From positions 124,001 to 188,000 of the forward strand of contig NZ_CM001377.1 in assembly GCF_000237825.1 (NCBI RefSeq): a DNA stretch of 64,000 bases, in the 5' to 3' direction. The position numbers and the translations under genes are program-made. Source of the DNA: Thermanaerovibrio velox DSM 12556 (GTDB lineage: Bacteria; Synergistota; Synergistia; Synergistales; Synergistaceae). Each line of letters opens with the position of its first letter. Within the stretch, counting starts at the first letter, position 1. Under the pieces are notes generated by a model. That model ran no database searches. It worked only from the letters and a program-made list of their open reading frames with translations, and was not told the origin of the DNA. Below, piece by piece: positions 20,228-64,000 of the stretch.

Positions 20228-22981
20228 TTGAGCTTCTTTCGTTTTGGCCCCTTTGGCCCCTTCAGGGGGTTTAAAAAGAACGAATGGATCCCCGGAGATG
20301 GGGACAACCAGTGGAGTCCCCTGGAGGAAGGGGGGGAGGTCTTCGACTCCCGTCCCGTGAGGCCCTTGAAGCCCAAGGGCTTGATCCCCCTGGGATTGAT
20401 TGTTGGTGGTGTGGTGCTTCTGCTGCTGGTGCCGTGGCTCTTCACGGAGCTATGGTGGTTCCGGTCCGTAGGCTTCGAGGAGGTCTTCATAAGGCGCATT
20501 TTAGCAAGGGCCGGGTTATTCGCCCTGGGGTTTCTCGTCGCGGCGTTGGCCCTGTGGAGATCCGTGGGGGGGCGTAAGGTCTCTTCGGGCCTTTTGGCCG
20601 GTGTCCTCCTGGGGGCCCTTTTCAAGGGTGTGCAGCTCTCCTCCCTTTGGCTCACCCTCCTCTCAGGGGTGCTTTGGTCCCCCTTAGGGGTGAAAGACCC
20701 CCTGTTCGGGTTGGATGCGGGGTTTTACCTTTTCGCCATGCCCGCCTTGGATGGGCTGCTCAAGTGGCTTTGGGGGCTTTGGGCCCTTGGGGTTTTAGGG
20801 TCCCTTGCGTCCATGAGGCTTGATGGGGGGCTCCAAGGGCTGCATTTCAGACTCCTGTCCCTTAGATGGATACCTTCCCTGGGCCTCGTGCTGTGGACCG
20901 GGTCGGTGGCCTTGGACGTGCTGTCCCTGGTGTGGGCCCCCGGCAGGGTGGTGTACGGTGCTTCGTTTGCGGATGTGAAGGTCAGGCTTCCCCTGATGCT
21001 GCTGCAGGGGACGGTTCTGGCCGTCTCTGCCGTGCTGTTGGCCCTGGGGCGGGTTAAGCCTTCGGTTAAGCTTGCCAAGCCGATGGTGGTGCTCTTCGCG
21101 GGGCTTTGGTTTTTGCGGGCTTTCCTGCCCGGTGTGATCCAGCAGCTCGTGGTGCGTCCCAACGAGTTCCAGATGGAGAGGCCTTACATAGGGGCCCACG
21201 TGGACATGACCCTGAAGGCCTACGGCCTACAGGATGTGAAGACCGTCCAGGTGGACCCGGCCCCCAAGGTTGGCAGGGCGGACCTTACGGACAGGGCCCT
21301 TAAGAACATAAGGCTTTGGGACTACGAACCCCTCCTCACCGCCTACAAACAGCTGCAGGAGATAAGGTCTTACTACGAGTTCCTGGGGGCCGACGTGGAC
21401 CGTTACCCCTGGGAGGGGGGTAGGATGAGGCAGGTGATGCTGGCGGTCCGGGAGCTGGATCACCGAAAGCTTCAAAGTCAAACCTGGGTTAACCGCCATT
21501 TGGAGTTCACCCACGGCTACGGACTGGTCATGAACTACGTCAACCAGGTGGCCCCCGGGGGGATGCCGGACCTGATAATCAAGGACATCCCCCCCTCCGG
21601 AGGCCCGGTGGAGCTCAAGACCCCCGCGGTTTACTACGGTGAGATGAACTACCCCTATGCGCTGGTGAGGACCAAGGTGCGGGAGTTCGACTACCCAAGC
21701 GGGGACTCCAACGTGAGGTCCGTCTACTCCGGCGAGGGGGGAGTCCCGGTGGGTTCCTGGATCCGGAGGCTCGCCTTCGCCCTGCGTTTCAGGGATATGG
21801 AGCTCCTGTTTACTCAGGCCTTGACTAATGATAGCAAGATTATGTTTAATAGGAACATAATTGCCATGGCAAGTCGTGTGGCCCCGTTCCTGGTTTACGA
21901 TTCGGACCCCTACCCGGTGGTTCACCGGGGCAGGTTGCTCTGGATGTTGGATGGCTACCTGGTCAGTCGGTACTTCCCTTACTCAAGGCCCATGGATGCT
22001 CCGTTGGGTGGGGGAGAGGTCCGGCTCAACTACGTTAGGAACAGCGTTAAGGTGACGGTGGACGCCTTTGACGGGGAGATCCGGTTTTACGGCACCGGTG
22101 ATCCCGCTTTGGAGCCCTACAGGAGGCTCTTCCCTGGCTTGTTCCGGTCCCTTTCGGAGATGCCTGGGGAACTCAAGGGGCACCTGAGGTATCCGAAGGA
22201 CCTTTTTGCGGTGCAGGCCGAGGCGTTCCGGCTTTATCACATGGGGGATCCGAACACCTTCTACAACCGGGAGGACCTCTGGCAGATATCTCCGCCGGAG
22301 TCCAGGCGGCCCATAAGGCCGAACTACGTGACCATGGACATGGGGGATCCTGGTGGGGAGGAGTTCGTCCTCATGCTGCCCTTCATGCCCGCCGGGAGGA
22401 ACAACCTGGTGGGGTGGATGGCGGCCCGCTGCGACGGGGAGCATTACGGGGAGCTGGTGGTGTACAAGTATCCCAAGCGCAACCTGGTATTCGGTCCCAC
22501 CCAGGTGGAAGCCCTTATAGACCAGAACCCGGAGATATCCGCCCAGCTCTCCCTTTGGAGCCAGAGGGGGTCCGACGTGATAAGGGGGGATCTCTTGGTC
22601 TTGCCCATGGGAAGGTCGATCCTCTACGTTCAGCCCGTGTACCTCAAGGCGGAACGGGGGGAGCTGCCGGAGCTGAAGAGGGTGGTCCTCTCCTCGGGAG
22701 GGCAGGTGGTTTGGGGTGAGACCCTCCAGGAGGCGGTGGGCCGGCTGGTTGGTGGAGAGAGGGCCTCATCTTCCACCGAGGATTCCCCTCCCGGGGCGGA
22801 TGGGCCCCGGTCCGATGGAGGGGAGGTCAAGAACGTCCTCTTGAGGGCCCGGGAGGCCTTAAAGAGGTCCCGGGAGGCCCTTAAGCTTTACGATTTCGCT
22901 GCTTACGGCAGGGCGATGAGGGATTTGGAGGAGGCGCTCGAGGAGATGTCCAGGTATTTATCCGGCGGTGATGGTCCCTGA
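20228..22981 (+). CDS. UPF0182 family large membrane protein
   Basis: A 917-residue protein of the UPF0182 family, whose function is unknown. The N terminus is Phe/Gly-rich and cytoplasmic, followed by about seven transmembrane segments up to residue 310. A large extracytoplasmic region then carries the family blocks (YYEFLGADVDRYPW, VNRHLEFTHGYG, YYGEMNYPYA, PFLVYDSDPYPVV). The last ~80 residues are Gly/Ser-rich and then a helical segment of repeated RxALKRSREALKLYDF type. The start is TTG 20228 with GGAGGTG nine bases upstream. It is followed within 20 bp by a PP2C phosphatase and a Ser/Thr kinase, so it could be their membrane partner or substrate. Confidence 0.92.
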   Translation: MSFFRFGPFGPFRGFKKNEWIPGDGDNQWSPLEEGGEVFDSRPVRPLKPKGLIPLGLIVGGVVLLLLVPWLFTELWWFRSVGFEEVFIRRILARAGLFALGFLVAALALWRSVGGRKVSSGLLAGVLLGALFKGVQLSSLWLTLLSGVLWSPLGVKDPLFGLDAGFYLFAMPALDGLLKWLWGLWALGVLGSLASMRLDGGLQGLHFRLLSLRWIPSLGLVLWTGSVALDVLSLVWAPGRVVYGASFADVKVRLPLMLLQGTVLAVSAVLLALGRVKPSVKLAKPMVVLFAGLWFLRAFLPGVIQQLVVRPNEFQMERPYIGAHVDMTLKAYGLQDVKTVQVDPAPKVGRADLTDRALKNIRLWDYEPLLTAYKQLQEIRSYYEFLGADVDRYPWEGGRMRQVMLAVRELDHRKLQSQTWVNRHLEFTHGYGLVMNYVNQVAPGGMPDLIIKDIPPSGGPVELKTPAVYYGEMNYPYALVRTKVREFDYPSGDSNVRSVYSGEGGVPVGSWIRRLAFALRFRDMELLFTQALTNDSKIMFNRNIIAMASRVAPFLVYDSDPYPVVHRGRLLWMLDGYLVSRYFPYSRPMDAPLGGGEVRLNYVRNSVKVTVDAFDGEIRFYGTGDPALEPYRRLFPGLFRSLSEMPGELKGHLRYPKDLFAVQAEAFRLYHMGDPNTFYNREDLWQISPPESRRPIRPNYVTMDMGDPGGEEFVLMLPFMPAGRNNLVGWMAARCDGEHYGELVVYKYPKRNLVFGPTQVEALIDQNPEISAQLSLWSQRGSDVIRGDLLVLPMGRSILYVQPVYLKAERGELPELKRVVLSSGGQVVWGETLQEAVGRLVGGERASSSTEDSPPGADGPRSDGGEVKNVLLRAREALKRSREALKLYDFAAYGRAMRDLEEALEEMSRYLSGGDGP

Positions 22982-23001
22982 GGTGTGGGGGCTCCCAGAT
23001 A

Positions 23002-23667
23002 GTGGGAGCTAGAAGATATCAGGAGGATGCCTTCGGCTACGGAGAGGGGCCGAACCTCTACGGGGCCGTGGCGGACGGCATGGGGGGCATGCTTATGGGT
23101 GCGGAGGCCTCCAGGATAGCGGTTGAGGCCGCCATGGGGGCCTTGCGGGGCGGAGGCACCCCCCTTCAAGCGGTGATGCGGGCCCAGGAGGATGTACAGT
23201 CCTGGGCCAGGGGGCTTGGCATCTTGGGGCTCACCGGCACCACCCTTTCGGTGGCTGCGGTGGACCTCTCGTGCGGCCTGCTCGACTGGGCCTCCGTGGG
23301 GGACAGCCGGATATACCTCTTCCGACGAGGAGGCAGCATGGAACTGCTATCACGGGATCACACGGTGGCGGAGGCCGTTCGGGCCTCCGGGGGCGACCCC
23401 GCGTCCCTGGGGGCCGAGGGGGATCTCATAACCAGCTTCATAGGGATAGAGGAGCTGGCGGAGATCTCCATTCCCGAAGAACCCGTCAGGCTGGAGAAGG
23501 GGGATGTGGTGTTGTTGGTGTCCGACGGGGTCCACCGGGTGCTCTCCCCTGCGGAGATGGCGGCGTTGATGGACCGGGAGGACCCTGCCTCGGCGCTGAT
23601 GTGGGCGGTGTCTTCCAAGGGTATCAAGAGACAGGACAACGCCACCGCGGTGGTGTTGGCCATTTGA
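23002..23667 (+). CDS. PP2C-type Ser/Thr protein phosphatase
   Basis: A metal-dependent phosphatase of 221 residues. The metal-binding aspartates are seen in RRYQEDAFGY, AVADGMGGM, the middle SVGDSRIYLF, LVSDGVHRVL and the final QDNATAVVL. It should oppose the kinase encoded six bases downstream. The only in-frame start is GTG 23002. It lies inside a 7-bp hairpin (22991-22997 with 23003-23009) that overlaps the initiation codon and leaves no clear ribosome site, so coupling to the UPF0182 stop 20 bp upstream is likely. Confidence 0.9.
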   Translation: MGARRYQEDAFGYGEGPNLYGAVADGMGGMLMGAEASRIAVEAAMGALRGGGTPLQAVMRAQEDVQSWARGLGILGLTGTTLSVAAVDLSCGLLDWASVGDSRIYLFRRGGSMELLSRDHTVAEAVRASGGDPASLGAEGDLITSFIGIEELAEISIPEEPVRLEKGDVVLLVSDGVHRVLSPAEMAALMDREDPASALMWAVSSKGIKRQDNATAVVLAI

Positions 23668-23673
23668 GATGCC

Positions 23674-25092
23674 ATGCGGGATCGTAAAGGCGTTAAGACT
23701 GGGGGTGCTTTCGAGGTGGCCCATAGAGACATAAGGCTTCCTTCCGGTTCGGTGCTCATGGAGCGCTACCGGGTAGGTACCCTTTTGGGCCGCGGGGGCT
23801 TCGGCATGACGTACCTAGCCTGGGACAGGGTGCTGGAGCTGAAGCTGGCGGTGAAGGAGTACTTCCCCATGGGCCTTGCGTTCAGGGCACCCGACGGTTC
23901 CGTTTACTGCCCCCCCGGGGAGGAGGAGACCTTCGAGGATGGGCTGGAGCGGTTCCTGGAGGAGGCCAGGACCCTGGCCAGGCTTGACCGCATAGACGGG
24001 GTAGTGCCCGTTAGGGACTACTTCAAGGCCAATGGCACCGCCTACATGGTGATGAACTACGTGGAGGGCAAGACGTTGAAGGATTACCTGGAGGAGAGGG
24101 GGGGGATGATAGACTTCGAGGAGGCCGTGGACCTGCTCATCCCCCTGATGGAGGCCCTCCACAGGGTACATCGGGAGGGATGCCTGCACCGGGACGTGAG
24201 CCCCGACAACATCCTGGTCTCCCCGGACGGACGATGTACCCTGATAGACTTCGGCGCCGCCCGGGGGAGCTTCCGCAGCACCGTCAGCGTATCCGCGGTC
24301 CTTAAGCCCGGTTACGCCCCGGAGGAACAGTACCGGGGAGGAGGTGATCAGGGCCCCTGGACGGACGTGTACGCCATGGGGGCCACCCTCTACAGGTGCG
24401 TCGCCGGGTTCCCGCCACCGGACCCCATGGAGCGCCTCAAGGGCCAAAGGCTTCCGGTGCCCAAGGGCGTCCCCAGGGGAGCCTTCAAGTCCTTGGAAAA
24501 GGCCTTGGCGGTGAACCGGGAGGATCGTTTCCAGGACATGATGTCCCTCATAGAAGCCCTTCATCCCCACTTGGGGGCCGGGATGGCGGTGAACATGCGG
24601 GCCATCAGCGCGGCACTGCTCCTGGGGATGTTCTTCGCCCTGGGGGCAGCGGTGGCGGTGGGCAGCCGCCTCCTCAGCCTTGGGGCCCCATACTTGAGAC
24701 AAGCGGCTTTCTTCCACCAGGAGGAGCCGAGGCATAAGCCCCCGGATGAGAGATCCGCTGGGACCGTTGACGAGGCCCCTTTGAAGAAACCAGCGGTAAG
24801 CCTTCCCGCGGATGGGCAGGGCGCCCCGGTTAAGGCCTCGGAGGATCCTCTGGCGGAGGCTAGGAGGATGTTGAACCGGGGGGACTTCGAGGGGGCTTTA
24901 AGGCTTTCCGAGGAGGCCCAGCGGGGGAGCCGAGACAAGAGGGGCCCCCTACTGGTGGGGATAAAGGCCGCCTTGGGGCTCGGCAGGACCGACATAGCAA
25001 GGTCCAAGCTGGAGGCCCTAATGGCCCTGGACCCCCTTTATCCCGGGGCGTCTGAACTGGCGGAGCAGCTTAACCTGAAGCGGACAAATTAG
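23674..25092 (+). CDS. Membrane Ser/Thr protein kinase
   Basis: A Hanks-type kinase with one transmembrane segment, 472 residues. The kinase domain spans about 30-290: glycine loop LGRGGFGMTY (39-48), catalytic Lys61 in AVKEYFP, HRDVSPDN (172-179) and DFG (192-194). The Lys usual in HRDxKxxN is Ser here, as in many bacterial KEYFP-type kinases. A hydrophobic span near 309-330 leads to a linker and a TPR-like C terminus (NRGDFEGALRLSEEAQ). There are no PASTA repeats. ATG 23674 has a weak ribosome site; GTG 23716 is possible. It forms a kinase/phosphatase pair with the gene upstream. Confidence 0.9.
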   Translation: MRDRKGVKTGGAFEVAHRDIRLPSGSVLMERYRVGTLLGRGGFGMTYLAWDRVLELKLAVKEYFPMGLAFRAPDGSVYCPPGEEETFEDGLERFLEEARTLARLDRIDGVVPVRDYFKANGTAYMVMNYVEGKTLKDYLEERGGMIDFEEAVDLLIPLMEALHRVHREGCLHRDVSPDNILVSPDGRCTLIDFGAARGSFRSTVSVSAVLKPGYAPEEQYRGGGDQGPWTDVYAMGATLYRCVAGFPPPDPMERLKGQRLPVPKGVPRGAFKSLEKALAVNREDRFQDMMSLIEALHPHLGAGMAVNMRAISAALLLGMFFALGAAVAVGSRLLSLGAPYLRQAAFFHQEEPRHKPPDERSAGTVDEAPLKKPAVSLPADGQGAPVKASEDPLAEARRMLNRGDFEGALRLSEEAQRGSRDKRGPLLVGIKAALGLGRTDIARSKLEALMALDPLYPGASELAEQLNLKRTN

Positions 25093-60006: not shown

Positions 60007-60098
60007 ATGATTATGTGTGTCCGGATAAGGGGTCCCTGGGGTTTTCCCCGGGGGCAAGGTATAAGACGGGGGATGTAAAGAAGGGGGAGGGATTGCAG

Positions 60099-60794
60099 AT
60101 GTTCTATCCGTTTTTTGATCCCACCATGCTATTTCTGATACCGGCGGTCATCCTTGGCATCTGGGCCCAGATGAGGGTTCAGAGCACCTATGCCCGGTAT
60201 GCGGCGGTGTGGGCCCGGCGGGGGGTGACGGCGGAGCAGGTGGCCCATGGGCTGTTGGGTCGTTTTGGGCTCCGGATCCCGGTGGAGCGGGTGCCTGGGA
60301 GCCTCACGGATCACTACGATCCCCGGGCCAAGGTGCTCCGGCTTTCGGACAGCGTGTGGGGCAACTACAGCATAGCCGCCATAGGCGTGGCGGCCCATGA
60401 GGTTGGTCATGCGGTGCAGGACCTGGAGGGTTATTCGCCGCTGAAGATAAGGAACGCCATAGTGCCGGTGGTGAACCTGGGATCCATGGCGGCGCTGCCC
60501 TTGTTCTTCATAGGGTTCCTGTTTAGGTCTCCGTCTATGATGGACCTGGGGATACTGTTCTTCCTGGGGGTCATATTGTTCCACCTGGTGACCCTGCCGG
60601 TGGAGTTCGACGCCTCCAGCAGGGCGTTGAGGCTTCTTGCGGACACCGGGTACCTTGCCCCGGACGAGATAAGGGGGGCCAGGGAGGTGCTCAACGCCGC
60701 GGCCCTCACCTACGTGGCCGCCACGGTGATGGCGGTTTCCCAGCTGCTCAGGCTCCTATTCTTGAGGGGCATGGTGGGGGGCCGGGACGAGTAA
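60099..60794 (+). CDS. Membrane zinc metallopeptidase (YugP-like)
   Basis: A 231-residue membrane protein of the neutral zinc metallopeptidase family PF04298. An N-terminal membrane helix (MLFLIPAVILGIWAQM) precedes a cytoplasmic-face catalytic region with HEVGH (His100, Glu101, His104). Two or three further hydrophobic segments follow, then the conserved TLPVEFDASSRAL, where the third ligand is expected. ATG 60099 follows GGGGGAGGG. Its physiological substrate is unknown. It lies upstream of rsmB. Confidence 0.9.
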   Translation: MFYPFFDPTMLFLIPAVILGIWAQMRVQSTYARYAAVWARRGVTAEQVAHGLLGRFGLRIPVERVPGSLTDHYDPRAKVLRLSDSVWGNYSIAAIGVAAHEVGHAVQDLEGYSPLKIRNAIVPVVNLGSMAALPLFFIGFLFRSPSMMDLGILFFLGVILFHLVTLPVEFDASSRALRLLADTGYLAPDEIRGAREVLNAAALTYVAATVMAVSQLLRLLFLRGMVGGRDE

Positions 60795-60922
60795 GACCTT
60801 TTGCAGTGGGGTGGTTTGTTATAAACTCGTGGGGGCTTCCCCCGCGGGTTTTGTTTTTTGTATTCCCTTATTAGGGATTTCGCGTTCCCGGGAGGAACCC
60901 GACTGGAGGAGATGTTTGCGAT

Positions 60923-62239
60923 ATGAAGGGGATAGAGGCTGCGCTTTTGGTTTGGAAAGAGGTGGGGGAGGGGGCCTTTGCGTCCGAGGCCCTTCGCAGG
61001 GTTTCGGGGCAGCTTTCTCCGGGGGACAGGAAGCTGGCGGCCCTTTTGGTTTACAGTGCCTTGAGGCGCCGCAGCCTGTGGCGCTTCATGTTGGAGAAAC
61101 GGCTCCGGCGGCCCTTCAAGGAGCTGAAGCCGATCACCCGGGACGCCCTGATGCTGGGTCTTGCGGGCTTGATGGAGCTTAAGCGGTTTAACCCCGGGCC
61201 CCTTTACAACGGGCTTGCCCAGGTGATGAAGGCCCAGGGGGCGGATGACGAGGTGCCCCTTTTCCACGGGGTGTTGAAGCGTCTGGAGCGGGAGGGGCAG
61301 GAGCTCCTGGATCGTCTTAGGGTCAGCTCCTCCCCCAGGGACGTGGCCATGTACCATGGGCTTCCCCTGTGGGGGCTGAGCTTGTTCATGGACCAGTGGG
61401 GGCCCAAGAAGGGCAGGGAGCTTGCCAGGCTGATGGGCATGACCCGTTACTCCTCGTTCTTCGTCCCCCCCTCGGAGAGGGAGGGGTTGATGGACGCCAT
61501 GAGGTCCGCGGGGATCCGCTGCTGGCCGTCGGACGAGCTGGATTTCTCCGTGAGGACCTGTTCCCACGGCTTTCCCCCGGAGGTGCCCGGTTATCGGGAG
61601 GGGCTTCTGCGTCCCATGAGCGAGTCGTCCATGTGGGTGGTACGCTGTGCCGTTCACCTCGCCAAGGGGGGCCGGGTTCTTGACATGTGCTGCGGCAGGG
61701 GAGTTAAGGGGTCCGCGCTGCTGTCCTTGGATGACCGGGTGACTTTGGAGGGCTGGGACATATCGGAGGGGAAGGTGAGGGCTGCCAGGGGTGATCTGGA
61801 CCTTCGGGGGCTTTCCGATCGGGGGGTCATAAGGGCCGGGGACGCGTTGGATCTGATCCCGGAGGAGGAGCCTCATCTTGTGCTTCTGGACGCCCCTTGC
61901 AGCGGCAGCGGCACCTGGGGCAGGCATCCGGAGGGCAAGTGGCGCATGTCCCCGGAGGAGGTGGATCGCCTCTCGGGCCTTCAGCGTAGGCTGTTGGACC
62001 GGGCCTTGAGCCTTGTGCCTAAGGGGGGCCGGGTCATCTACTCCACCTGCAGCCTCTTCAGGGAGGAGAACGAGCGGGTGGTGGGAGAGGTGTTGTCTTC
62101 TCGGCGGGACGTGGTGGAGGAGCCGTTTCCGTTCCGGGGGGCGGACATTGTAAAGGGGCGTCCTTTCGGCGTCTACGTGTGGCCCAGGCTCCCCTGGGCG
62201 GACGGATTTTACTGCGCGGTGCTCTACCGGCGCGGTTAG
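60923..62239 (+). CDS. rsmB: 16S rRNA m5C methyltransferase RsmB-like
   Basis: A 438-residue RNA methyltransferase. An N-terminal NusB-like domain (about 1-135) is followed by the SAM-binding domain: VLDMCCGRGVKGSALL, LEGWDISEGKV, LLDAPCSGSGTWGRHPEGKW (PCS motif) and the catalytic Cys in VIYSTCSL. It modifies a cytosine of 16S rRNA. ATG 60923 follows GGAGGAGA. It is followed 17 bp later by the PASTA gene and then rpe, an order reminiscent of the Firmicutes rsmB-prpC-prkC-rsgA-rpe locus. Confidence 0.92.
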   Translation: MKGIEAALLVWKEVGEGAFASEALRRVSGQLSPGDRKLAALLVYSALRRRSLWRFMLEKRLRRPFKELKPITRDALMLGLAGLMELKRFNPGPLYNGLAQVMKAQGADDEVPLFHGVLKRLEREGQELLDRLRVSSSPRDVAMYHGLPLWGLSLFMDQWGPKKGRELARLMGMTRYSSFFVPPSEREGLMDAMRSAGIRCWPSDELDFSVRTCSHGFPPEVPGYREGLLRPMSESSMWVVRCAVHLAKGGRVLDMCCGRGVKGSALLSLDDRVTLEGWDISEGKVRAARGDLDLRGLSDRGVIRAGDALDLIPEEEPHLVLLDAPCSGSGTWGRHPEGKWRMSPEEVDRLSGLQRRLLDRALSLVPKGGRVIYSTCSLFREENERVVGEVLSSRRDVVEEPFPFRGADIVKGRPFGVYVWPRLPWADGFYCAVLYRRG

Positions 62240-62256
62240 CGGGGGGATATCAGGAT

Positions 62257-63423
62257 ATGGGTCGTTTTCTGAAGCTTGGGGTTCTTGTCTCCCTTCTGGT
62301 CATAGTGGGCTCCGCCTACATGGCCCTTAAGCTTGTATTCTTCGAGAGCCCGGAGGTGCAGGTGCCTGCGGTGGTGGGCATGGACGCGGTTAAGGCGGTG
62401 GAGGCGCTGCGGTCTCAGGGGCTGTTGGTCCGGATAGACCAGGTGGACTCCTCGCAGCCCCAGGGGATGGTGGTGTCCCAGTGGCCGGATCCGGGGGAGA
62501 AGGTGGAGCGTGGCAAGGTGGTGATCCTCAAGGCCAGCCGGGGAGGCCGGGTCGTCACGGTGCCGGACGTGAGGGGCCTTGAGATGGGAGAGGCGGTCAA
62601 GCGGCTTTCCGACGCGGGGTTGAAGGTGTCCGAGGTGCTCAAGGTCCGGGACCAGGTTACCCCCTCCGGGAAGGTCATAGCCCAGAACCCCGCGTCCCCC
62701 GCGGCGGTTCCCAGCACCGCTTCGGTGAGCCTTTTGGTGAGCCAGGGGCTTGGGGGAGAGGACCTGGTGGAGATCCCAGATCTCACTGGACAGCCGGTGG
62801 ACCAGGCGATGCTCATGGTGTCCCAGATGGGGCTGAAGGGTGAGGTGGGGGCTAGGGTGAAGACCCAGGCGTTCCCGGAGGGGGTCGTGGTGTCCCACGT
62901 GCCCCGGATGGGGGCCAAGGTCCCGCCGGGCAGTGTGGTGTCCCTGCGGGTGGCGGCGGCGGGCAGTACCGGCCAGGGTGCCTCTGCCCCATCTGGGGAG
63001 GTCCAGCCCCAGGGAGCGGCGGGTGTTGCGGAAGGGACCCCTAAGGCCGAGACGGCCCCGGTGAACCCCGCGCCCTCCAGCTCTGGCAAGCCGCAGAAGG
63101 AGAAAGAAGAGCCCAAGCCCCAGGAGGCGCCTAAGCTCAGTGTGCCGCCAGGGGGCTCCTCCGGGGGCAAGGTGGAGCCCAAGGAGGGGGCTAAGGTGCT
63201 GAGCGGTCCCTTGAGGACCGCCAAGATAAGGTATCAGGTGCCGCCGCTCACCCAGCCCATGGCCCTTAAGATAGAGCTGGTGGACGACGACGGCACCAGG
63301 GTGGTTAAGGAGACCCAGGTCAAGGGCGGGGAGTACGTGTCCGTGGACGCGCCCTTCCGTGGAGAGGCCCGGGTGGTCATATATCTGGGAGGCGAGTTCG
63401 TATGGCAGGACCGGTATCGGTAG
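62257..63423 (+). CDS. Membrane-anchored PASTA-domain protein without kinase
   Basis: A 388-residue protein with a short cytoplasmic end, one transmembrane helix (about 7-25, LGVLVSLLVIVGSAYMAL) and three PASTA domains outside (about 33-98, 101-168 and 172-240; each with a VPxVxGxxxxxAxxxL pattern and a P/S-x-G-xVVxxxP turn). A Pro/Lys/Glu-rich linker (242-325) leads to a C-terminal beta-like module ending VIYLGGEFVWQDRYR. PASTA domains bind peptidoglycan or muropeptides in PrkC/PknB kinases and PBPs; here no kinase or transpeptidase domain is attached. ATG 62257 follows GGGGGGAT. Confidence 0.92.
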   Translation: MGRFLKLGVLVSLLVIVGSAYMALKLVFFESPEVQVPAVVGMDAVKAVEALRSQGLLVRIDQVDSSQPQGMVVSQWPDPGEKVERGKVVILKASRGGRVVTVPDVRGLEMGEAVKRLSDAGLKVSEVLKVRDQVTPSGKVIAQNPASPAAVPSTASVSLLVSQGLGGEDLVEIPDLTGQPVDQAMLMVSQMGLKGEVGARVKTQAFPEGVVVSHVPRMGAKVPPGSVVSLRVAAAGSTGQGASAPSGEVQPQGAAGVAEGTPKAETAPVNPAPSSSGKPQKEKEEPKPQEAPKLSVPPGGSSGGKVEPKEGAKVLSGPLRTAKIRYQVPPLTQPMALKIELVDDDGTRVVKETQVKGGEYVSVDAPFRGEARVVIYLGGEFVWQDRYR

Positions 63424-63437
63424 GAGCCGTTAGGGGC

Positions 63438-64000
63438 ATGGGCAGGGCGCTTCTCGCCCCGTCGCTCCTCTCCGCAGACCTTATGAACGTCAAGGGCTCC
63501 GTGGAGGCGTTGGGCGGGGCTTGGGACTGGCTGCACGTGGACGTGATGGATGGGCACTTCGTCCCCAACATAACCTTCGGCCCCGGTTTCGTGAGGTCCC
63601 TCCGGCGCGGGTTCCCCGACGCCTTCCTGGACGTCCACCTCATGGCGGATGCCCCGGAGGACTTCGTGGAGGACTTCGCTTCCGCCGGGGCGGATCTCAT
63701 GTGCGTGCACGTGGAGGCCTCCAGGCACCTGCACAGGCTTTTGAGTTCCATCCGGGAGGCGGGGGTCATGGTGGGGCTTGCGGTTAACCCCGCGACCCCG
63801 GTGGAGTGGACGTTCCCGGTGCTCCACATGGTGGACCTGGTGTTGGTGATGTCCGTGAACCCCGGTTTTGGCGGGCAGAAGTTCATCCCCGAGACGATGA
63901 ACAAGACCCTGGAGCTCTTCCGCAGGAGGGAGGCGGAAAAGCTGGAGTTTCTCATAGAGATGGATGGTGGCATCGGGGAGGACAACTGCCGGGAGCTGGT
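63438..64000 (+). CDS. rpe: Ribulose-phosphate 3-epimerase, partial
   Basis: The first ~187 residues of the pentose-phosphate epimerase that interconverts ribulose-5- and xylulose-5-phosphate; the gene runs off the right edge. TIM-barrel motifs: LLAPSLLSADLMNV, WLHVDVMDGHFVPNITFGP, LDVHLMADAPEDF and LVMSVNPGFGGQKFIPETM with the metal-binding His/Asp residues. ATG 63438 is 14 bp after the PASTA stop, with AGGAG and AGGGG upstream, so rsmB, the PASTA gene and rpe are probably one operon. Confidence 0.93.
   Translation, partial: MGRALLAPSLLSADLMNVKGSVEALGGAWDWLHVDVMDGHFVPNITFGPGFVRSLRRGFPDAFLDVHLMADAPEDFVEDFASAGADLMCVHVEASRHLHRLLSSIREAGVMVGLAVNPATPVEWTFPVLHMVDLVLVMSVNPGFGGQKFIPETMNKTLELFRRREAEKLEFLIEMDGGIGEDNCREL

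Follow-up and report, generated by a model that had tools for sequence, protein, structure and literature searches.

PASTA domains have been studied almost solely within kinases, such as PrkC of Bacillus subtilis, whose Arg500 is a muropeptide-binding residue, and within penicillin-binding proteins (PBPs). B. subtilis PrkC has three PASTA domains followed by a C-terminal immunoglobulin (Ig)-like domain, and its ectodomain binds peptidoglycan fragments (PMC5786024, PMC3601408). The C-terminal domain adopts an Ig fold and has been suggested to be adhesive, perhaps binding peptidoglycan (PMC3601408, PMC5786024). Peptidoglycan fragments, lipid II or sacculi are bound by the PASTA domains of PrkC, PknB and PBP1 (PMC5786024, PMC6428115, PMC9426605), and the genes prpC, prkC and cpgA form a conserved cluster in Firmicutes (PMC6449344). 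Here we describe a gene in a stretch of 64,000 nucleotides from Thermanaerovibrio velox DSM 12556 (contig NZ_CM001377.1, positions 124,001 to 188,000; hereafter the window), which occupies the position of the PASTA kinase gene between rsmB and rpe and encodes a membrane protein of 388 amino acids (aa) with three PASTA domains and no kinase.

Resemblance to the PrkC ectodomain

Pfam agrees with the initial annotation that rsmB and rpe flank a membrane protein with three PASTA domains (PF03793, E 6e-34 overall), and found no kinase, phosphatase, GTPase or transpeptidase domain in it. The NCBIfam model of PASTA kinases, NF033483, matches this protein only at positions 339-562 of 563, with 127 bits against a cut-off of 450, while the SpoVD model gives 24.5 bits. 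An AlphaFold model built with 18 Synergistota sequences has a mean predicted local distance difference test score (pLDDT) of 81, and its top fold match is the entire extracellular region of Staphylococcus aureus PrkC (3py9; Foldseek E 5.9e-20). Alignment of aa 35-388 to this structure gives a VIA Z of 12.7 and a root-mean-square deviation of 27.2 over 268 residues, a deviation which probably reflects differing angles between domains.

No Pfam entry matched the C-terminal domain. AlphaFold models this part (aa 319-387) as a confident beta-sandwich of six long strands, and its signature, A[KR][IV]RYQVPPL ... IYLGGEFVWQDRY, is strongly conserved across most Synergistota. A hidden Markov model (HMM) of the Synergistota domain finds the tails of Bacillota PrkC (best E 8e-15; 22 of the 28 tails at E up to 0.01), the reverse search with an HMM of PrkC tails is similar (best E about 1e-15), and hhalign scores the pair at 97.7%. 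Searched by HMM, 58 further proteins gave no match to the domain. They comprised four PBPs, four actinobacterial kinases and stand-alone PASTA proteins from Acidobacteriota, Fusobacteriota, Thermotogota and Bacteroidota; among the proteins screened the domain is common to Synergistota and Bacillota only. Since a transmembrane (TM) helix and three PASTA domains are followed by a domain homologous to the Ig-like domain of PrkC, the protein is the complete membrane-plus-ectodomain half of PrkC, present as its own gene.

With PrkC/Stk1 of Bacillota (NF033483; 3py9) the protein thus shares the TM helix, three PASTA domains in line, the C-terminal Ig-like domain and the position between rsmB and rpe. 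It differs in lacking the kinase domain, in a long disordered linker before the Ig domain and in having almost no cytoplasmic part, and its cluster lacks PP2C, rlmN and rsgA. According to hydropathy, the TM helix of nearly every one of 48 Synergistota relatives begins only a few residues from the N-terminus, a position which leaves no room for a cytoplasmic domain. The protein's PADLOC matches (PD-T4-6) cover the TM/PASTA portion of kinase models and do not speak for a role in defence.

The PASTA domains are of PrkC type and not of PBP type. All 144 Synergistota domains scored higher with an HMM of PrkC PASTA domains than with one of PBP PASTA domains, the latter built from only seven domains. 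PASTA-PBPs (PBP2x, PBP1, SpoVD) also have extracytoplasmic PASTA domains, but these are fused to a transpeptidase, come as two compactly packed domains (PMC9426605) and give lower sequence scores. In the complete genome, a single contig of 1,880,838 bases (99.96% complete), a PF03793 search found no PASTA domains other than those of the window protein. Because the genome has no PASTA-PBP, a role in trans for a PBP is possible, in which the protein would supply the function that other phyla fuse to the division PBP. The PASTA domain count is only three in almost every Synergistota genome, as one such protein predicts, open frames of PBP size with PASTA domains (about 560-810 aa) occur in Thermotogota, Fusobacteriota, Bacteroidota and Bacillota, and the PASTA domains of S. 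aureus PBP1 bind peptidoglycan and are essential for division (PMC9426605). The greater similarity to PrkC domains argues against this role, as does the occurrence of both kinds of protein side by side in other phyla, where they are hence not interchangeable; we regard it as unlikely.

Distribution in Synergistota

PASTA matches were found in 180 of 188 Synergistota genomes, some of which are incomplete, and in 115 of 116 good genomes, almost always with three domains per genome. In each of 48 fetched loci the PASTA gene is preceded by rsmB (at a distance of 0.8-1.6 kb in three loci from a single genus), and rpe follows it in all 46 whose contig continues. This arrangement is not due to chance. 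A RodZ-type gene (HTH_25 and RodZ_C) follows rpe in 43 of 44 loci, and no match to either of two PP2C queries was found in the 48 loci. Where rsgA is clearly present in Synergistota it is located elsewhere in the genome; in many genomes, including this one, the rsgA search returned weak GTPase matches only.

No Synergistota genome (0/188) has a full PASTA kinase passing the NF033483 cut-off, and the listed matches to this model span either its kinase part or its TM/PASTA part. As a control, all 61 genomes in a phylum sample centred on Clostridium pass the same cut-off. Hanks kinases of any kind were found in 90 of the 188 genomes and in 55 of the 116 good ones. At least 60 good genomes have PASTA matches and no Hanks kinase; over all genomes, at E 0.001, this number is 94 once the eight PASTA-negative genomes are taken into account.

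Hanks kinases in this genome and phylum

The initial annotation had pointed to a Hanks kinase and a PP2C phosphatase far from the PASTA gene, without PASTA domains and beside UPF0182, and had suggested, as one of two options, a separation of sensor and kinase in this lineage. The location is correct, at a distance of about 37 kb; the suggested separation was not borne out, the kinase being of another type and absent from about half of the Synergistota genomes with PASTA. The window kinase, which carries the motif HRDVSPDN, scores 122 bits with an HMM of Bacillota PrkC kinase domains, compared with 325-333 bits for actinobacterial PASTA kinases and 226-263 for the non-PASTA kinases adjacent to them. 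Because its score is far below both groups, the window kinase is not the detached catalytic half of PrkC. The best Synergistota kinase reaches 202 bits, and by these HMM scores no detached PrkC kinase domain was found among the Synergistota kinases examined.

These results bear on the possibility that the PASTA protein serves as a sensor that signals in trans to the unlinked kinase (23674-25092). The genome does contain one Hanks kinase and one PASTA protein, and a PP2C gene lies beside the kinase. The two proteins, however, do not co-occur in about half of the PASTA-bearing Synergistota genomes, and the cytoplasmic tail of the PASTA protein is almost absent, leaving hardly anything through which a signal could pass. 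With a kinase that is not of PrkC type and is missing from half of the phylum, such a split sensor seems very improbable.

A cluster of UPF0182, PP2C and the HRDVSPDN kinase (window 20228-25092) is conserved in related Synergistota (loci L115, L116 and L123); in L118, L121 and L122, PP2C and kinase are close together, and the stretch gave no UPF0182 match. We also considered whether a detached PrkC kinase survives in the deepest Synergistota family and dropped this idea, as in L113 the kinase runs on into UvrD-like helicase sequence. This strongest Hanks kinase of the family (L113 5423-8032, genome G002) is an unusual fusion, following an FtsA-like gene, to sequence in which a Walker A and helicase-like motifs were judged by eye. 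Kinase-bearing frames of 870-900 aa are present in three other genomes of the family (G001, G003 and G004).

The same locus in other phyla

In a Paenibacillus record, the gene order is def-fmt-rsmB-rlmN-PP2C-PASTA kinase-rsgA-rpe. Clostridia loci agree with it, and two of them have a Zn-peptidase before rsmB; a Zn_peptidase_2 gene between fmt and rsmB is found in Clostridium too. Together with the Synergistota loci, these gene orders support the view that the PASTA gene sits in the PrkC position; rlmN is a further member of the Bacillota order given in the initial annotation. A Paenibacillus record filed as a plasmid (NZ_CP054609.1, L131) holds def-fmt-rsmB-rlmN-prkC-rsgA-rpe along with other housekeeping genes and may be a part of the chromosome or a chromid.

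Genomes of other phyla were taken from one scan with RimO of Thermotoga maritima; their PASTA proteins were then placed and 40 more loci fetched. Kinase-free PASTA genes were found at the same locus in three phyla, as (fmt-rsmB-)PASTA-rpe in Acidobacteriota (23 of 23 loci placed), PASTA-rsgA(-rpe) in Fusobacteriota (11 of 11) and rlmN-PASTA-rsgA(-rpe) in Thermotogota (11 of 12 loci; L221, L276-L285). Around the PASTA gene of the remaining Thermotogota locus, L220, none of the locus markers was found. The proteins of these phyla (L221-L224, L235, L246-L285) resemble ours in being kinase-free membrane proteins encoded directly upstream of rpe or rsgA-rpe; they differ in having one to three PASTA domains, in the absence of a detectable Ig-like domain and, in some phyla, in rsgA or rlmN neighbors. 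Two of the acidobacterial proteins (L222 7341-8024 and L223 1586-2278), encoded directly before rpe, have one PASTA domain and a tail rich in Asn/Arg or Lys/Thr/Ser. A stand-alone PASTA protein of Bacteroidota is likewise a short membrane protein with PASTA domains only, but its gene lies beside ddl and an RluD-type pseudouridine synthase gene (one annotated locus, L227), and no Ig domain was detected in it.

Our counts of Hanks kinases cover Synergistota and Thermotogota. Of 103 Thermotogota genomes, 99 have PASTA matches (some in PBP-sized frames only) and 27 have any Hanks kinase; T. maritima, used in the control panel, has a PASTA match and no Hanks kinase match. Among the Thermotogota genomes (G229-G245), many without a listed stand-alone PASTA gene have a kinase frame of small size, about 265-406 aa, and most genomes having the stand-alone gene are without a kinase, a possible pattern of replacement.

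Gain or loss of the kinase

The initial annotation described the locus as one with the kinase taken out. This direction was not upheld: Acidobacteriota, Fusobacteriota and Thermotogota too have PASTA genes without a kinase at that position, so the Bacillota fusion may itself be derived. We tentatively propose, as a reading that is quite possible though short of probable, that fmt-rsmB-(rlmN)-PASTA-(rsgA)-rpe anciently held a membrane-anchored PASTA protein without a kinase, which predates the split of Acidobacteriota, Fusobacteriota, Synergistota, Thermotogota and Bacillota. PrkC would then have arisen by a later kinase fusion, and the core function of the locus would be wall binding and not phosphorylation. 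One gain is a simpler account than repeated losses because the kinase-free protein occupies the locus in four phyla and the fusion there was seen only in Bacillota; horizontal transfer and uneven sampling could mislead this count.

The alternative is kinase excision, in which a full PrkC stood here in the ancestor of Synergistota and the ectodomain was left when its kinase domain disappeared along with PP2C and rsgA. The restriction of the Ig-like domain to Synergistota and Bacillota among the proteins screened speaks for such an excision, as does the Zn-peptidase gene upstream, next to rsmB, which is also present in Clostridium. The domain ties the two phyla together, yet it could be older than the kinase fusion and fits either a loss in Synergistota or a kinase-free ancestor with an Ig domain. 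The kinase-free genes in three other phyla would call for several independent losses, and no remnant of a PrkC-like kinase was found in Synergistota.

Phylogenetic trees were built on the region of the TM helix and PASTA domains 1-3, a single PASTA domain amounting to about 64 columns. Acidobacteriota and Fusobacteriota were recovered as clades, while the backbone was not resolved and does not settle gain versus loss. One fork groups the deepest Synergistota family with a Bacillota kinase (92/97 support), in favor of excision. The free tree implies more than one change in Synergistota and more than one in Firmicutes. Approximately unbiased (AU) tests rejected neither a single clade of all kinases, Firmicutes and actinobacterial (p 0.70), nor a single clade of Synergistota (p 0.85), nor their union (p 0.75). 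Considering both sides, we view excision as quite possible though short of probable, slightly less so than a gain in Bacillota.

Possible function

The near-universal presence of the kinase-free form in Synergistota and its occurrence at the same locus in three phyla suggest that the ectodomain has a function in its own right; what looks conserved at the core of the locus is the wall-binding part, not the kinase. By analogy with PrkC and PBPs, we think it fairly likely that the protein resides in the inner membrane and, by binding periplasmic peptidoglycan, positions or regulates wall synthesis independently of any kinase. A kinase-independent role is favored because about half of the Synergistota genomes with PASTA have no Hanks kinase and no detached PrkC kinase was found among the kinases examined. 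Of the two alternatives offered in the initial annotation, an independent role in the cell wall is thus the better one. The RodZ-type gene near the locus, the conservation of rsmB-PASTA-rpe and the kinase-free genes in three more phyla lend it further support.

Synergistota have an outer membrane. One helix with almost no cytoplasmic tail would anchor the protein in the inner membrane, and the row of three PASTA domains, the flexible linker and the putatively adhesive Ig-like domain would extend into the periplasm. There, the PASTA domains may bind new or exposed peptidoglycan or lipid II and the Ig domain the wall or a protein partner. The protein could in this way mark or tether sites of wall synthesis for the elongation machinery; the RodZ/MreB machinery is a possible partner, or the protein might act in trans for PBPs.

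Several points weigh against a wall-binding role. Ligand binding is assumed by analogy from studies of PrkC, PknB and PBP1, and the case of S. aureus PBP1 shows that ligand binding by PASTA domains cannot be reliably told from sequence rules (PMC9426605). Neither rsmB nor rpe is a wall gene, and the adjacency of RodZ may have other reasons. In a literature search with most subscription journals outside it, we found no experiment on any stand-alone PASTA protein and no paper on a stand-alone PASTA protein at this locus or on PASTA in Synergistetes. As natural variants made of the ectodomain alone, these proteins can help to find out what PASTA domains do, and they turn the origin of PrkC into a question of gain versus loss that can be tested.

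Gene layout in the window

Features of the locus and of the unlinked kinase region are listed in Table 1. The PASTA gene, for which 62257-63423 is the preferred reading of the frame, starts 17 bp past the rsmB stop, and its end meets or overlaps the start of rpe. A hairpin search found no terminator-like hairpin between rsmB and rpe on the + strand. As the hairpin sets the peptidase gene apart and none lies inside rsmB-rpe, the three genes probably form one transcript.

Table 1. Positions of features in the window
Feature	Position	Strand	Basis and remarks
PP2C phosphatase gene adjoining the Hanks kinase	23002..23667	+	PF13672; NF033484 under its cut-off
Hanks kinase, sole one in genome, without PASTA	23674..25092	+	Pfam; PADLOC best match mad6
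Zn_peptidase_2 membrane protein gene	60093..60794	+	PF04298 E 6e-86; conserved upstream neighbor
Terminator-like hairpin with T run, between peptidase gene and rsmB	60823..60851	+	13 pairs, 8 GC; consensus match only
rsmB, 16S rRNA m5C967 methyltransferase	60923..62239	+	PF01189 and NusB; NCBIfam best match PRK14901, under its cut-off
Stand-alone PrkC-type PASTA membrane protein gene, 388 aa	62257..63423	+	Pfam, NCBIfam, AlphaFold, fold match
Single transmembrane helix, aa 2-28, almost no cytoplasmic tail	62260..62340	+	AlphaFold model; hydropathy over 48 relatives
PASTA domain 1	62356..62538	+	PF03793, E 3e-13
PASTA domain 2	62554..62745	+	PF03793, E 1.5e-13
PASTA domain 3	62767..62955	+	PF03793, E 1e-9
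Disordered Pro/Ala/Gly/Glu-rich linker, aa 237-313	62965..63195	+	pLDDT under 50; length varies among relatives
C-terminal Ig-like domain, aa 319-387	63211..63417	+	pLDDT about 95; homologous to PrkC C-terminal domain
rpe, ribulose-phosphate 3-epimerase	63402..64000, start 63402 or 63438	+	PF00834; cut by window end

In the genome sequence beyond the window, rpe is complete and encodes 232 aa (L065). The RodZ-type gene follows it just past the window (L065 10107-11048), with rimO and recA nearby.

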